DNA of 64,000 bases from Spirochaetales bacterium Spiro_07 (lineage in GTDB: Bacteria > Spirochaetota > Spirochaetia > Treponematales > Treponemataceae), in assembly GCA_001603145.1 (NCBI GenBank), contig LVBI01000035.1, positions 40,961-104,960 on the forward strand, in the 5' to 3' direction. Below are positions 784 through 6,431 of the stretch, in pieces. Below the pieces are notes generated by a model. It saw only the letters and a list, made by a program, of their open reading frames with translations. It was not told the origin of the DNA and ran no database searches. Position 1 is the stretch's first letter. Every line of letters begins with the position of its first letter. A program made the translations under genes and the position numbers.

Positions 784-833
784 AAAAAATAGTCATGCAC
801 GCCAAAACCGGTTTTGCAAACCGGCGGCTATGA
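784..833 (-). terminator. Terminator of the U32-family gene
   Basis: Read on the minus strand just after the stop of the U32 gene: a GTCAT/ATGAC outer stem, an inner CCGGTTT/AAACCGG hairpin (plus positions 808-824), then a T-rich run (AAAAAA on the plus strand at 784-789). Confidence 0.6.
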
Positions 834-839
834 CGTGTT

Positions 840-3089
840 TTAGCTGTGGCGCGGTCTGCTGGAATTGCGGCGGCCTTTACCGCTGCTGTTCTGGCGGCTT
901 GAGCTGTAATTTTTCTTGCCGCCTGCGCCCGACTTAGATGAGCCGTTGCGTCCGCGCTGATTCATTTGAGCTTGTGCATATTCAGTCATCTGGCGGCGTT
1001 CTTCGACTTTTTCTGGCGAATAAAAGCCTTCTTTCCAGTTGAAGCGCGAAATTTCAGACAGCGGCTTTGACGTATAAAAAGAAGCCATAATCTGCTTGAA
1101 ATCGCTCTTTTTTACGTCTGTCTTTGAAAGGTCAATCAAGAAATGCGTAAAGCCCATTTCCTTTATTGACTTATTCTTGTCAAGAATAGAGAAAGGCTGT
1201 TCGGGCAGAACAAAAGAACCGTCTTTTGTAGACAATGCCTTGAAAACGCCCTCTTCTCTATCCTTAAAATAGAGAAAATCATAAGATTCTGGCAGCTCAA
1301 AGCGCATTCTGAACAGAGCCGGATAAGCAAAAAGCGTAACCATAACCCTTTTGCGCTGGTCTGGCTCAAAAGTTGCTTCGATGTTGCGCTTTGAGTTTTC
1401 AAGCGGTGTTATAAGGCCGGTAATTCCTTGATTTTCAAGCCAAGAAACAGCCCATCTGTTAAAAGTATAAAGATAAGGGCCTGCAATCATAAAGACCTTG
1501 AGCGGCTTAAGCATTGCAATATGGCCGGGGTTGTTGACAACCCAGTTTGTAAAGCCTTCAGCAACAAGCTGTGTGACAGTCTCCGTAAGGCTGTCTTCAA
1601 TGTCCTGCGGCATATAAGGGTCTAAAGAAATGAAAACCTGCCGCTTTGAGAACGGAAGTTTTTCCTTTTTTTCAAGAAGCGATTCACGCGTAACGCTGTT
1701 CAATTCAAGAATAACGCGCACAGGCTGCTCGCATTGAACGACGAACAAATCTTTTACAGTTGAAACCTGAACATAAAGTCCTTCCGGCATCAAATCGAGG
1801 CTGTCTTTGGCGAGCGGCGTCAAATCAAGCACTGGCAGCTCTTGCGCCCCGGGCTGCGACCTGTAGCGGCTTATGTCGTTCGGCAGCACGCGCGGATAGC
1901 GCTTTGACATTGATTTTGTCTGAAGCAGATAAACTGAATCGCCTACGCCAAAACCGCGCGGAATTTCAACCCAGTTTTTTTCGCCGTCTTCATAGATTGA
2001 CTTAATCTTGTGGCTTTCGCGCACAGAGTCGTCTTTCTTGTGCAGACGGATTGAATCGCCGATGTCAGGGTCGTATGTGCCGCCCTTAATTACGGCGTAC
2101 CAACCGGCATCAGCCTTGTCATCTGAATCAGGCGAAAGCTTCTTTGCCTGAGTAATCTTTCCAAGATAAATTCCAGTGCCCGAAGCTTGTTTCGGGTTCA
2201 GTATATTTTCAGCTTGAGACGAAGTGTACCAGTACATCGTCTTTGTGCGTGCAAAATCTGTAGAAAGCATACGCTTTGCGGTTGCAAGCGCGCCTTTGCG
2301 GTCTTCTTGCCAATGATCAAGCATATATCTATAAGCCGAAACTACGCTGCCGACATATTCTGCGCTTTTCATGCGCCCTTCAATTTTGAATGAATCTACA
2401 CCGGCAGAAACTAAATCAGGCACACGCTCAATGAGCTGCAAATCATACGGCGAAAAATAAAAGCCCTGCTCCGTTCCGCCCGGCATGTCAGCTTCATATA
2501 AGCGGCGGCAAGCCTGTGTGCACATGCCGCGGTTTGCAGATTTTCCGCCGAGATAACTTGAAAAAAGGCACAAGCCGGACTCGCTTACACAGAGCGCGCC
2601 GTGCACGAACACTTCGATTTCAACGTTGGTGCGCTCTTTTATCTGCTTTATCTCGTCAAGGCCAAGCTCGCGTGCTAGAACTACACGCTTAAAACCGCTT
2701 TTGCTCATCGTGTTGGCGGCCTTTGCGCTTGCAATGTTCATCTGCGTTGAAGCATGAAGGCGCAAGTTCGGAAAGAACTGCTGAACCATTCTGACGATGC
2801 CGAAATCTTGAACAATCAAGCCGTCCGGCCCGATTTTATCAAGATAAGCAAGGAAGCGGTACATGCGTTCGGTTTCATATTCTTCAAGAACGGTGTTTAC
2901 AGTAACAAAGATTTTCTTGCCAAGCCTGTGAACAGAGTTTACGGCCGCCTCAAACTGATTCCATGCGAAATTTGTTGTGCGAAGACGCGCGTTGAAGCTT
3001 TTCAAGCCAAGATAGACTGCATCTGCGCCTTCGCCGATTGCAGCGTCAAGAGCTTCGATATTTCCAGCAGGAGCTAATAATTCTGCCAT
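840..3089 (-). CDS. Peptidase U32 family protein (probable RNA hydroxylation enzyme) with basic tail
   Basis: 749 aa. The N-terminal 250 residues are a classical U32 domain: MAELLAPAGN at the start, LHASTQMNI near 111-119, and four cysteines at C167, C174, C190 and C194 in a GLC...RGMCTQACRR context, then FKIEGRMKSAEY. U32 proteins were first called collagenases. Characterised members (RlhA, TrhP, UbiU/V) use these cysteines as an iron-sulfur cluster in prephenate- or oxygen-dependent hydroxylation of RNA or quinones, and an RNA target is the likelier role here by inference. The last 35-40 residues are rich in R, K, S and G, resembling an RNA-binding tail. AAGGA precedes the ATG. It is the last gene of the purEMN cluster, 97 bp after purN. 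A second U32 protein is encoded at 27275-29785. Confidence 0.85.
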   Translation of the reverse strand: MAELLAPAGNIEALDAAIGEGADAVYLGLKSFNARLRTTNFAWNQFEAAVNSVHRLGKKIFVTVNTVLEEYETERMYRFLAYLDKIGPDGLIVQDFGIVRMVQQFFPNLRLHASTQMNIASAKAANTMSKSGFKRVVLARELGLDEIKQIKERTNVEIEVFVHGALCVSESGLCLFSSYLGGKSANRGMCTQACRRLYEADMPGGTEQGFYFSPYDLQLIERVPDLVSAGVDSFKIEGRMKSAEYVGSVVSAYRYMLDHWQEDRKGALATAKRMLSTDFARTKTMYWYTSSQAENILNPKQASGTGIYLGKITQAKKLSPDSDDKADAGWYAVIKGGTYDPDIGDSIRLHKKDDSVRESHKIKSIYEDGEKNWVEIPRGFGVGDSVYLLQTKSMSKRYPRVLPNDISRYRSQPGAQELPVLDLTPLAKDSLDLMPEGLYVQVSTVKDLFVVQCEQPVRVILELNSVTRESLLEKKEKLPFSKRQVFISLDPYMPQDIEDSLTETVTQLVAEGFTNWVVNNPGHIAMLKPLKVFMIAGPYLYTFNRWAVSWLENQGITGLITPLENSKRNIEATFEPDQRKRVMVTLFAYPALFRMRFELPESYDFLYFKDREEGVFKALSTKDGSFVLPEQPFSILDKNKSIKEMGFTHFLIDLSKTDVKKSDFKQIMASFYTSKPLSEISRFNWKEGFYSPEKVEERRQMTEYAQAQMNQRGRNGSSKSGAGGKKNYSSSRQNSSGKGRRNSSRPRHS

Positions 3090-3185: not shown

Positions 3186-3836
3186 TTATTTATCAGCAAG
3201 CCTTGCCGCAAGAAGCTTCAAGCCTTCAACCATCGCCTGATGCTCGTGCGGCGCAATGCGTGCGTACAATGTTTCCGGCGTGTCACCGGCTTCAACAGGC
3301 ACACGCTTCTGCAGCAGAATCGTGCCTGTGTCGCAGCCTGCATCAACAAGATGAATCGTAATGCCAGATTCTTTCTCGCCGGCGGCAAGCACCGCTTCAT
3401 GCACATGATGCCCGAACATGCCTACTCCGCCGAATTTTGGAAGAAGCGCCGGATGCAGGTTGATGATTCTGCCAGAATAGCTTTCCAAAATAGGCCCGCC
3501 AAGCACGGTCAAGAAACCGGCAAGCACAATCGCTTCTATTTCATGAGCCTTGCAAAGCTCAAAGACTTTCTCTGAAACGGCAAAGCGCTTCTCGTCGCGC
3601 GTTGCTTCTTTCGCTTTTTCGCCCAAAAGCAAAGACGGCGAAGCTATAAAAGCCGGAACGCCTGCTTTCTTGGCACGCTCAAGCGCAAACGCCTTTGCAG
3701 AGCTTGAAATTACAAGCGCGATATTGTACGGACATTCTTCGCCGCGGCTTTTCATTGCAAGCTCTTCGTCTATAAGAGCCTGAAGGTTTGTGCCGCCGCC
3801 AGAAACAAGCACCGCTGTCTTTAAAGGTTTGCCCAA
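3186..3836 (-). CDS. purN: Phosphoribosylglycinamide formyltransferase
   Basis: 216 aa from the chosen start. It transfers a formyl group from 10-formyl-tetrahydrofolate to glycinamide ribonucleotide, step 3 of de novo purine synthesis in the cytosol. Seen: phosphate loop SGGGTNLQALID, folate-pocket segment VLAGFLTVLGG, and the catalytic set N126 and H128 in INLHPALLP plus D169 in DAGCDTG. The frame is open to a GTG at 3845, but that codon has no Shine-Dalgarno, whereas AGGTG sits 6 nt before the TTG at 3836, so the TTG is preferred. It lies 19 bp after purM in the same operon. Confidence 0.93.
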   Translation of the reverse strand: MGKPLKTAVLVSGGGTNLQALIDEELAMKSRGEECPYNIALVISSSAKAFALERAKKAGVPAFIASPSLLLGEKAKEATRDEKRFAVSEKVFELCKAHEIEAIVLAGFLTVLGGPILESYSGRIINLHPALLPKFGGVGMFGHHVHEAVLAAGEKESGITIHLVDAGCDTGTILLQKRVPVEAGDTPETLYARIAPHEHQAMVEGLKLLAARLADK

Positions 3837-3855
3837 TTTAATCACCTACTCGAAT

Positions 3856-4929
3856 CTATTCAAAAATAACGGCATCAGCCTGTGTCTCAACTTTCTGACC
3901 GGCACGGGCAACGCGCCCGATTTTATAAGCCTTCATTGTTGAGTTAAGGCCGGCGTTTGAAGAAACTGTGAATTCTTCAAATGTCTTTATGATGTTGTCA
4001 GCTTTATCCGCTTCAACTGCAAGCACAAGACCGATGCCCATATTGAATGTGTTGAACATGCGCGAAGGGTCTGCACCGCGGCGCTCAAGCTCTGCAAAAA
4101 TCGGCGGGATTTCCCAGCTGCCCTTCTTGATTACAGAAACAAGCGTCTTATCCGCATACATGCGCGGAATATTTTCGTAGAAGCCGCCGCCTGTAATGTG
4201 AGCCATGCCATGAACGGCGTTCACACCGCCCTGGCCTCTGAATTTATCAAGAACAGCAAGAACAGGGCGCACATAAATGCGTGTCGGCTCAAGAAGCACT
4301 TCGCCGATTTTTCTGCCGTTGAAAGGTGTGTCAAAATCTGTAACAAGCTTTCTTACAAGCGAAAAGCCGTTTGAGTGCACACCTGTTGAAGAAAGCCCGA
4401 TAAGCACGTCACCTTCTTTTATTGCTTCACCTGTAATGATGTTCTGCTTGTCTACAATGCCCACGCCGAAACCGGCAATGTCGTACTTGCCTTTGTCGTA
4501 GAAGCCCGGCATTTCGGCTGTTTCGCCGCCAAGCAATGCGCAGTCTGAATCTACGCAGCCGTCTGCAACGCCTTTAACAAGGTCTGCCGCAATGGAAGAA
4601 TCAAGGCTGCCGCAAGCAATATAATCTAAGAAATAAAGTGGCTTTGCGCCTGTGCAGAGAATGTCGTTCACGCTCATAGCAACACAGTCAATTCCGACTG
4701 TATCATATTTTTTCATGGCAAATGCGATGTCAAGCTTTGTGCCTACACCGTCTGTACCGCTGACCATTACAGGCTCTTTCATGCCGCCCGGCACAGAAAA
4801 CATTCCGGCAAAGCTGCCCAAACCGTTGAGCACGCCCGGAATCTGCGTGCGCTTGGCGTGTGCCTTATATTTATCTACAGCGCGGTAGCCTTCTTCAATG
4901 TCTACGCCAGACTGTCTGTAATCAATCAT
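3856..4929 (-). CDS. purM: Phosphoribosylformylglycinamidine cyclo-ligase
   Basis: 357 aa, normal family length. ATP-dependent closure of FGAM to aminoimidazole ribonucleotide (AIR). Recognised from the N-terminal DYRQSGVDIEEGYRAV, the ATP/Mg segment VSGTDGVGTKLDIAF, SVNDILCTGAKPL, GGETAEMPGFY, GLSSTGVHSNGFS and ITGGGFYENIPRM. A GGGAGA precedes the ATG. It is the middle gene of purE-purM-purN, 33 bp after purE. Its product AIR is the substrate of PurE, so the two encoded enzymes act consecutively. Confidence 0.96.
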   Translation of the reverse strand: MIDYRQSGVDIEEGYRAVDKYKAHAKRTQIPGVLNGLGSFAGMFSVPGGMKEPVMVSGTDGVGTKLDIAFAMKKYDTVGIDCVAMSVNDILCTGAKPLYFLDYIACGSLDSSIAADLVKGVADGCVDSDCALLGGETAEMPGFYDKGKYDIAGFGVGIVDKQNIITGEAIKEGDVLIGLSSTGVHSNGFSLVRKLVTDFDTPFNGRKIGEVLLEPTRIYVRPVLAVLDKFRGQGGVNAVHGMAHITGGGFYENIPRMYADKTLVSVIKKGSWEIPPIFAELERRGADPSRMFNTFNMGIGLVLAVEADKADNIIKTFEEFTVSSNAGLNSTMKAYKIGRVARAGQKVETQADAVIFE

Positions 4930-4962: not shown

Positions 4963-5475
4963 TTAAAGCTCAACGCCCCTGCCGCCGTTTTCAGCAGATT
5001 CTTCAGCAAGCTTGCGACGGAAATCCACAAGCTTTTTCTTAAGTTCAGGATATTTTACGGCAAGGATTTCAAGAGCAAGATAAGCAGCGTTCGCGGCATT
5101 ATTTATGCCTACAGTTGCCACAGGAATCTGGCGCGGCATCTGCACAATCGAAAGCAGCGCGTCCATTCCGCCAAGACCGTTTGAAGCGCGGCCTTTCGCG
5201 TCAGCGCTCATGCATTCCAGAGGAATTCCGATTACGGGCAGAACAGTCATTGATGCAATTACACCCGGCAAGTGGGCCGCAAGTCCTGCACCGGCGATTA
5301 TGACTTCCGAGCCGCGCTCTTCAACAGCTTTTACTGTTTCGGCAAGAAGCTCACCTGAACGGTGGGCTGATAAAATAAAAGCTTCATATTCCACCCCGAA
5401 TTCTTTCAAGACAGAAGAAGCTTTTTTCATAGTTTCTGTATCTGATTTTGAACCAAAGAAGACAGCAACTTTCAT
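4963..5475 (-). CDS. purE: AIR carboxylase / N5-CAIR mutase (PurE)
   Basis: 170 aa. It carboxylates AIR to CAIR. Motifs: FFGSKSD at 6-12, SAHRSG with H38, AGLAAHLPGV, and QIPVATVGINNAANAA. Treponema denticola PurE has been reported as a class II enzyme that uses AIR and CO2 directly without PurK. No purK is present in this window, which agrees but does not prove it. The frame extends upstream to a GTG at 5517; the ATG at 5475 is preferred because GGGGTG precedes it at good spacing and family members begin at MKVAVFFGS. First gene of the operon, directly downstream of the purine riboswitch. Confidence 0.93.
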   Translation of the reverse strand: MKVAVFFGSKSDTETMKKASSVLKEFGVEYEAFILSAHRSGELLAETVKAVEERGSEVIIAGAGLAAHLPGVIASMTVLPVIGIPLECMSADAKGRASNGLGGMDALLSIVQMPRQIPVATVGINNAANAAYLALEILAVKYPELKKKLVDFRRKLAEESAENGGRGVEL

Positions 5476-5534
5476 GCAACACCCCATGAAGTTAAGAATA
5501 ATCGGCGGCTTTTGCACGAGCGCAAAAAAAGGTG

Positions 5535-5634
5535 CGACTCATAGTCTGACATAAGGGAGTCAGGTAGAAACTCTTATTCCCAGGCAGGAATGAGGAGAGA
5601 AGAAAACCTGCCAATAATAAGATTATATGAGCCG
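5535..5634 (-). promoter_or_regulatory. Purine (guanine-class) riboswitch controlling purEMN
   Basis: Read on the minus strand the full three-way junction is present. P1 is CGGCTCATA with TATGAGTCG. J1/2 is the canonical TATAATCT. J2/3 is GTTTCTACC (plus 5563-5571). P3 is CTGAC/GTCAG. J3/1 reads GACTATGAG, with C at the position that chooses the ligand (plus 5544), so guanine or hypoxanthine rather than adenine. P2 is CTTATT/AATAAG, but where a 7-nt L2 is expected there is ATT, then a GGCAGG/CCTGCC hairpin (5583-5612), then TGGG. The 3' GGG of that loop can still pair with CCC of L3. T7 follows P1 (5524-5530 as A7), and the 3' strand of P1 can instead pair with a downstream GCGCTC, so a termination or translation switch is plausible. 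Confidence 0.9.
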
Positions 5635-5644
5635 TCGATAACGG

Positions 5645-5673
5645 AATATATCACAAAAGAGCATAATAAGCAA
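5645..5673 (-). promoter_or_regulatory. Sigma70 promoter of the riboswitch-purEMN operon
   Basis: On the minus strand, -35 TTGCTT (5668-5673), a 17-bp spacer, and -10 TATATT (5645-5650). The predicted start lies just before the riboswitch P1 helix. Confidence 0.75.
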
Positions 5674-5723: not shown

Positions 5724-6431
5724 TTAGAAGAAGAACTGAATAAGCGACGCCAAAACAACCGGAATAAGCAAGTTGTCAAAGTCTTTCAACGGAAGCATCT
5801 CGACAAACATGCCGGCAAAACCGCAGACAAGACCAGCGGCCGCATTGCCTGTTACAAGGCTTGTCAGCAAAAAGATTACGCCGAAACAAGACAAGCTGCC
5901 GACAACAGATTTTCCGCCTGTAAACGGAATTTTCACGTTGCCGAACATTTTGCCAAAAAGACTTGCAACGCCGTCGCCTGCGGCAAGCCCGATTATGCCG
6001 ACAGTTGCAGCCGTTTCATTGAAGAAAAGCGCTGAAACAAGCACGCCGCAGCACAGCGTTACAGGGCCAAGCACGAAGCGGTTTTCGTCTCTTTTTCGGG
6101 CGGCGGCTTCAGTTATAGCTGAAAATATCGGAACGTTCTTGCCGTGCATGCGCAATATTTCTGAAACGATGTAGACTGCAAGAACAGCAAAAAGCCCGGC
6201 TATTGTCAGCCAATACAAATAATGAAGCATAAGCGGCACAAAGATTGTGCACAAATGAATTGATTTTCTGAAGATTTCCTTGCGGAGCAAAATAATGCGG
6301 CTTCTGATAAGAATACCGTGCCTGTACATCATGTGCTCTTTGCAGAGACCTGTCTCAACAGGATTAACTTCAGACAGAGAAGCCGACGCACCGGCAAAAA
6401 CATTTTTCATGTCAGAAGTTGTATGAACCAT
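5724..6431 (-). CDS. Polyprenol/phytol kinase-like membrane protein (COG0170 family)
   Basis: 235 aa with about six hydrophobic segments from residue 60 onward. The conserved block GDGVASLFGKMFG followed by FTGGKSVVGSLSCF matches the dolichol/phytol kinase and CDP-alcohol-type family (SEC59/VTE5/DGK1), which phosphorylates or cytidylylates lipid alcohols in the membrane. The substrate cannot be told from sequence. AGGAGA lies 8 nt before the ATG. A second in-frame Met is at residue 8. It ends 88 bp before the purine riboswitch, with the purE promoter in between, so it is likely a separate unit. Confidence 0.7.
   Translation of the reverse strand: MVHTTSDMKNVFAGASASLSEVNPVETGLCKEHMMYRHGILIRSRIILLRKEIFRKSIHLCTIFVPLMLHYLYWLTIAGLFAVLAVYIVSEILRMHGKNVPIFSAITEAAARKRDENRFVLGPVTLCCGVLVSALFFNETAATVGIIGLAAGDGVASLFGKMFGNVKIPFTGGKSVVGSLSCFGVIFLLTSLVTGNAAAGLVCGFAGMFVEMLPLKDFDNLLIPVVLASLIQFFF

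Follow-up and report, generated by a model that had tools for sequence, protein, structure and literature searches.

A guanine-type riboswitch with a hairpin inserted into its L2 kissing loop precedes purE in a family of spirochaetes

The kissing of loops L2 and L3 is the textbook tertiary contact of purine riboswitches, in which L2 is nearly always short. Variable stem-loop insertions are known in riboswitches generally (PMC2258182), and the P3a stem of the TPP riboswitch and other optional peripheral stems are lineage-specific extra stem-loops that leave the core intact (PMC2258182). Ligand-changing variants of the guanine class, such as xanthine-II and 2'-dG, are known as well and alter the binding junction along with the ligand (PMC9295807). 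In cobalamin riboswitches, an L5-L13 kiss stabilises a hairpin at the ribosome site (PMC10653944; PMC2258182). Our literature search, mostly outside subscription journals, found no description of an L2 hairpin insertion in natural purine riboswitches, nor of a purE riboswitch of spirochaetes.

The leader element analysed here is a structurally new variant of the guanine riboswitch. With the RF00167 guanine riboswitch it shares the three-way junction, the pocket nucleotides, the ligand-choosing C, the GG/CC kiss between L2 and L3 and a purine gene downstream; it differs in having a hairpin-bearing L2 of 24-80 nt, a third kissing pair that is always standard, and a P1 whose 5' strand is shared with a conserved downstream element. 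As with the TPP P3a-type stems, a lineage-specific stem-loop is added to an intact core, but here the stem sits within a tertiary-contact loop. The variants of PMC9295807 are likewise structural variants of the purine class, although theirs change the binding junction and the L2 insertion leaves it alone. The likeness to the cobalamin L5-L13 contact (PMC10653944) lies in a C-rich aptamer loop that may kiss the ribosome-site region, here suggested for one genus only (g9, below); aptamer and ligand are unrelated, an optional insertion carries the C-rich loop here, and for the window the pairing lacks support. A hairpin in a kissing loop that retains three covarying pairs is a natural experiment that bears on the requirements of this contact and on the points at which extra RNA can be attached to it.

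The window is a 64,000-nt stretch of contig LVBI01000035.1 of Spirochaetales bacterium Spiro_07. A preliminary description of it had placed a guanine-type purine riboswitch before purE, purM and purN, and this identification holds. The RF00167 covariance model matches at 5650-5522 (-) with 46.3 bits against a cut-off of 37 (E 1.4e-4), the sole match in the genome assembly, and the three genes downstream match their TIGR models. P1 (CGGCTCATA/TATGAGTCG on the minus strand), P2 and P3 (CTGAC/GTCAG) are all present around conserved junction sequences, as judged by RF00167, covariation and folding; J2/3 reads GTTTCTAC, and the C of GACTA occupies the ligand-choosing place in the window as in all 23 leaders described below. 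L2 consists of ATT, the hairpin GGCAGG-18 nt-CCTGCC and TGGG, facing an L3 of TCCCTTAT, and takes up 35 nt in the RF00167 alignment where the model has 5. Folded alone, the 100 nt of the aptamer adopt exactly the P1-P2-(P2a)-P3 arrangement, with the hairpin in L2 just as it had been drawn, and none of 200 shuffled sequences is equally stable. The element is a purine riboswitch of guanine type, guanine being its predicted ligand. The four-way architecture proposed earlier is a loose description: the ligand-binding junction remains three-way, and the small additional junction that the insert creates lies within the kissing loop. Judged from the sequence, the transcript probably starts near 5640-5638, close to UAUCGACGG and a few bases past the TATAGT/TATATT box; a sigma-70 scan of the window leader found no full promoter. 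Just upstream of the riboswitch lies a 235-aa open reading frame (5724-6431, minus strand) with no NCBIfam match, apparently a membrane protein from its sequence. Coordinates are collected in Table 1.

Table 1. Features of the purE leader and the genes behind it (window coordinates).
Feature	Position	Strand	Basis
Extended -10 promoter element TGA-TATATT, probable	5645..5650	-	Sequence; TATAGT at the same place in relatives; inference
5' tail and P1 5' strand UAUCGACGGCUC, common to P1 and alternative helix	5629..5640	-	Kept in 23 leaders
Guanine-type purine riboswitch aptamer, P1 to P1	5535..5634	-	RF00167 46.3 bits; fold z -4.26; covariation
P2 TCTTATT/AATAAGA (5622-5616 with 5578-5572), around extended L2	5572..5622	-	RF00167, covariation, fold
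Inserted hairpin P2a GGCAGG (5612-5607)/CCTGCC (5588-5583), 18-nt pyrimidine-rich loop	5583..5612	-	Sequence, fold
CUCCUCA in insert loop, candidate anti-Shine-Dalgarno	5591..5597	-	Identical in 15/15 relatives, three genera
L2 3' part TGGG; GGG kisses L3 CCC	5579..5582	-	L2/L3 comparison over relatives
L3 TCCCTTAT	5551..5558	-	L2/L3 comparison over relatives
C of GACTA, ligand-choosing position (C74, xpt numbering)	5544	-	Sequence; C in 23/23 leaders
U7 tract, 4 nt past P1	5524..5530	-	Sequence; U-rich tract after P1 in 15/15 CUCCUCA-group relatives
GCGCTCGTG, possible partner of freed P1 3' strand	5515..5523	-	Window, L003, L004; not L007
Distal GCCGCCGAT: partner of 5' tail, or (with preceding GUGCAAAA) of purE ribosome site	5501..5509	-	Conservation, constrained folds
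purE Shine-Dalgarno GGGGTG; start codon ATG	5480..5485; 5475-5473	-	Sequence
purE	4963..5475	-	TIGR01162 175 bits, over cut-off
purM	3856..4929	-	TIGR00878 405 bits
purN	3186..3845	-	TIGR00639 168 bits

Searching 274 genomes from the window's family, probably the Treponemataceae, with RF00167 gave 16 matches, and a model (R1) based on those 16 plus one weak member recovered 23 leaders in four genera, together with one ordinary riboswitch before another gene. All 23 homologous leaders directly precede purE. They fall into the window's genus g1 (L003, L004, L007 and L005, which is the window), g5 (L006, L009 and L186-L189), g9 (L008, L018, L177, L178 and L185) and g4 (L010-L017). An L2 insertion recurs, with differing stems, in 22 of the 23, in all four genera of this one spirochaete family; the lone leader lacking it, L010, has a short L2 and the same GGG/CCC contact. 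L2 measures 24-80 nt in the insertion carriers against the usual 5-10, and 37 nt in the window, where it comes down to 7 only once the hairpin is subtracted; 110 of 149 ordinary purine riboswitches have an L2 of 7 nt. In the family search the carriers span 116-143 nt. Since RF00167 matches are shorter both elsewhere in the phylum (96-103 nt among the matches listed) and in a clostridial sample of 291 genomes (96-104 nt among about 150 listed), with the insertion absent from either set, we regard the insertion as a trait of the family within the range searched. A pattern scan of 84,980 genomes for L2 insertions produced at least 120 matches, and among those listed one was a true long-L2 case (L124, the genome of L004); the other listed matches were set aside, being either ordinary riboswitches preceded by a promoter-like TATAAT or sequences with no good long P2.

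Where the riboswitch is missing, the purE leader is very short in several congeners; in L191, L193, L197, L198 and other relatives of this kind, purE is almost leaderless, with a -10-like box a few bases before the start codon, and the riboswitch and the long purE leader seem to be gained or lost as a unit. The purE leader of L196, from another genus, opens about 110 nt before the start with TATCGGACAGTTTGTATAATCTCACTGG, like the 5' part of the riboswitch, and lacks GTTTCTACC; it is possibly a decayed riboswitch.

Comparison of 16 relatives supports the aptamer helices, with 95.8% of the cells of P1, P2 and P3 paired. Twelve of the 21 aptamer pairs vary on both sides, a count reached in none of 500 shuffles, and shifting the partners by one base as a control lowers the two-sided changes to 2. 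The kissing contact, which had been predicted to survive the insertion, is present throughout: in 23/23 leaders the 3' end of L2 is GG, at or close to P2, and the first bases of L3 are CC. A third pair, between the base before GG and the base after CC, is standard in all 23 as well. It is mostly G-C, and is replaced by C-G in L009, U-A in L186-L188, A-U in L018 and G-U in L189; with near-identical rows collapsed it is standard in 19/19 (p 0.0003 by shuffling). We assigned the kissing register manually; it is ambiguous in g4, and also in L177 and L178 with their stretches of four G and of more than three C. Ordinary purine riboswitches, unlike these leaders, have mostly U/G or A/G at the two places, and we conclude that the L2/L3 contact has been kept and lengthened to three pairs, with the insertion entering 5' of the kissing triplet. 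In the junction, L018, L185, L186, L187 and L189 carry GTCTCTACC in place of GTTTCTACC in J2/3, a U to C change recurring in two genera at what we take to be the flipped-out position of known structures.

Nearly all inserts fold as hairpins, flanked by a few L2 nucleotides on the 5' side and by NGG or NGGG on the 3' side, and single inserts are modestly more stable than their shuffled counterparts (10/500 shuffles for the window). Harmless stem-loops derived from long variable insertions are frequent in riboswitches (PMC2258182), and there is close to an even chance that the insert is one of these, a passive variable stem-loop that L2 tolerates and that has no task. Within one genus the insert is free to differ in both sequence and length (L2 24-34 nt), and L010, the one member that does without it, shows it to be dispensable in that relative. 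Such passivity accords poorly with g1, where the stems differ (GGCAGG/CCTGCC, GACAGG/CCTGTC, GGTAGG/CCTGCC) while the loop stays constant over four species. It accords poorly, too, with the motif CUCCUCA, which is similar to the ribosome's anti-Shine-Dalgarno and identical in the inserts of 15/15 leaders of g1, g5 and g9; g4 has none. In g9 this motif can pair with the purE Shine-Dalgarno, compensatory change included.

The alternative to a passive insert, which we advance tentatively and consider possible rather than probable, is that the L2 hairpin is an anti-Shine-Dalgarno arm whose CUCCUCA kisses the purE Shine-Dalgarno, making it a part of the expression platform housed inside a tertiary-contact loop. 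The seven loop/Shine-Dalgarno pairs of g9 read UUACUCC/GGAGUAA in L177, UUGCUCC/GGAGUAA with a G.U in L178 and UUGCUCC/GGAGCAA in L185, a compensatory A-U to G-C change by way of a G.U intermediate. Further pairings are found in L008 (UACUCCU/AGGAGUA) and, in another genus, in L006 (ACCUCC/GGAGGU). The mean pairing energy in g9 is -12.4 for own partners against -8.5 and -7.4 for swapped ones; in g1 it is -7.1 for own against -7.3 for swapped partners, and the window's CCUCAU/AUGGGG, six pairs with one G.U, does no better than the swapped combinations. Permuting loops and Shine-Dalgarno sequences across all genera gives p 0.006 (0.0096 for representatives), values confounded by genus structure; permuting them within genera gives a non-significant p 0.27, with the sequence segment slightly mis-cut and L018 left out. 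When several hundred sites in leader and early gene were scanned without bias, the Shine-Dalgarno was the best loop partner in 8/15 leaders and the second best in 3, including the window; in g5, other sites pair better in 4/6 members. Because g1 has no excess and other sites win in g5, the proposal is a good one for g9 and a suggestive one for L006 and L009; for the window it is unproven. CUCCUCA as displayed by the insert in the window's group is probably a docking site, and in the sister genus g9 the dock is likely the Shine-Dalgarno itself. If the insert loop does dock on the ribosome site, this would be a way for a simple aptamer to gain a further regulatory arm, in convergence with cobalamin riboswitches. 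A pairing of the insert loop with the P1 3' strand (CUCAU/AUGAG) is feasible in the window's genus and impossible in g9, and was dropped.

The main switch probably lies elsewhere than had been thought. The preliminary description had the P1 3' strand pairing with a downstream GCGCTC as a plausible switch next to the T7 tract. The pairing itself is available in the window, L003 and L004 and is lost in the congener L007 (CGCAATC). As the main switch it is not supported: GCGCTC is absent from L007, the T7 lies in a hairpin loop and not after the hairpin, and a scan found no intrinsic terminator in the window leader. This reading had also missed a family-wide distal element, CCGCCG (CCGUCG in most of g9), located 27-45 nt ahead of the start codon in 22/23 leaders. 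The 5' end of the RNA, UAUCGACGGYUC, has two mutually exclusive partners, the P1 3' strand or the distal CCG(C/U)CG. The core of this alternative helix, CG.CGG/CCG.CG, is retained in 23/23 leaders; at position 6, 17 leaders have A.C, five members of g9 have A-U and L014 has G-C, and position 10 is C-G or U-A, the change from C to U being matched in most leaders in both the P1 3' strand and the distal element. Taken leader by leader, the alternative helix frequently lies within the range of shuffled sequence, so the case for it rests on conservation. In three congeners, GCGCTC plausibly assists the alternative state.

We propose, with moderate confidence, that the riboswitch turns translation of purEMN off at high guanine. 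With guanine bound, P1 would keep the 5' strand, leaving the distal element and its neighbours available to help close the purE ribosome site by folding; when guanine is absent, the 5' tail would capture the distal element and the ribosome site would open. The inserted hairpin would meanwhile project out of the kissing loops. The aptamer, the L2 insertion, the three-pair kiss and the two-partner 5' strand come from sequence and covariation, and the purine synthesis genes downstream are in keeping with repression by guanine. In constrained folds of 20/23 leaders, the Shine-Dalgarno region is on average less occluded when the alternative helix forms than when P1 does. The exceptions are L008, L014 and the window itself (openness 0.46 with P1, 0.34 with the alternative helix), whose own fold counts against translational repression; L018 is almost level. 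With P1 imposed, the freed distal element, along with its neighbours, tends to fold over the ribosome site: the closing pairing is GUGCAAAAGCCGCC with GGGGUGUUGCAUG in g1 and GCCGCCGG with CCGGAGGU in L009, and around the start codon in g9 it is GGUAAUCU with AGGUUGCC. The unconstrained optimum of the window is the alternative state (-52.3 vs -48.9 kcal/mol), in which GCGCTC pairs with the freed P1 3' strand. As the folds omit pseudoknots and ligand energy, these results are a guide only.

Also counted against translational repression is a U-rich tract that starts 0-4 nt past P1 in 15/15 leaders of g1, g5 and g9 and hints at termination instead or as well. P1 of the aptamer would in that case be a terminator stem: guanine would lock P1 by the U-tract, the polymerase would release a short transcript, and the distal CCGCCG would merely secure the read-through RNA. 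Given the nearness of the U-tract, and the lengthening of P1 by C-G pairs flush with it in most members of g5 and g9, P1 may act in this way in these three genera. In the window's genus, however, 3-4 unpaired nucleotides separate P1 from the U-tract, 7/8 leaders of g4 lack such a tract, and a terminator scan that admits short loops only found none in the window leader. The distal element is transcribed after the U-tract, too late to compete for termination; we therefore prefer translation control family-wide and judge termination by P1 rather unlikely as the main account, though both may act. Expression platforms apparently vary from genus to genus. In the g4 leaders L010 and L012, separate terminator-like hairpins with U-tracts (GTGCCGTC..GACGGCAC and CGGGAA..TTCCCG) lie between P1 and the distal CCGCCG.

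A ligand other than guanine, such as the xanthine, 2'-deoxyguanosine or 8-oxoguanine bound by known guanine-class variants (PMC9295807), is very improbable, given pocket nucleotides of guanine-riboswitch type in nearly all 23 leaders (GUUUCUACC with U51, GACUA with C74, UAUA) and the xanthine-II marks (J2/3 or J3/1 insertions, U51G) in 0/23.

The congener L007 has three matches to the TD-1 RNA (RF03155; L007:2424-2542, 2581-2700, 802-926 (-)), one of them over the cut-off, no more than 2 kb from its purE riboswitch.
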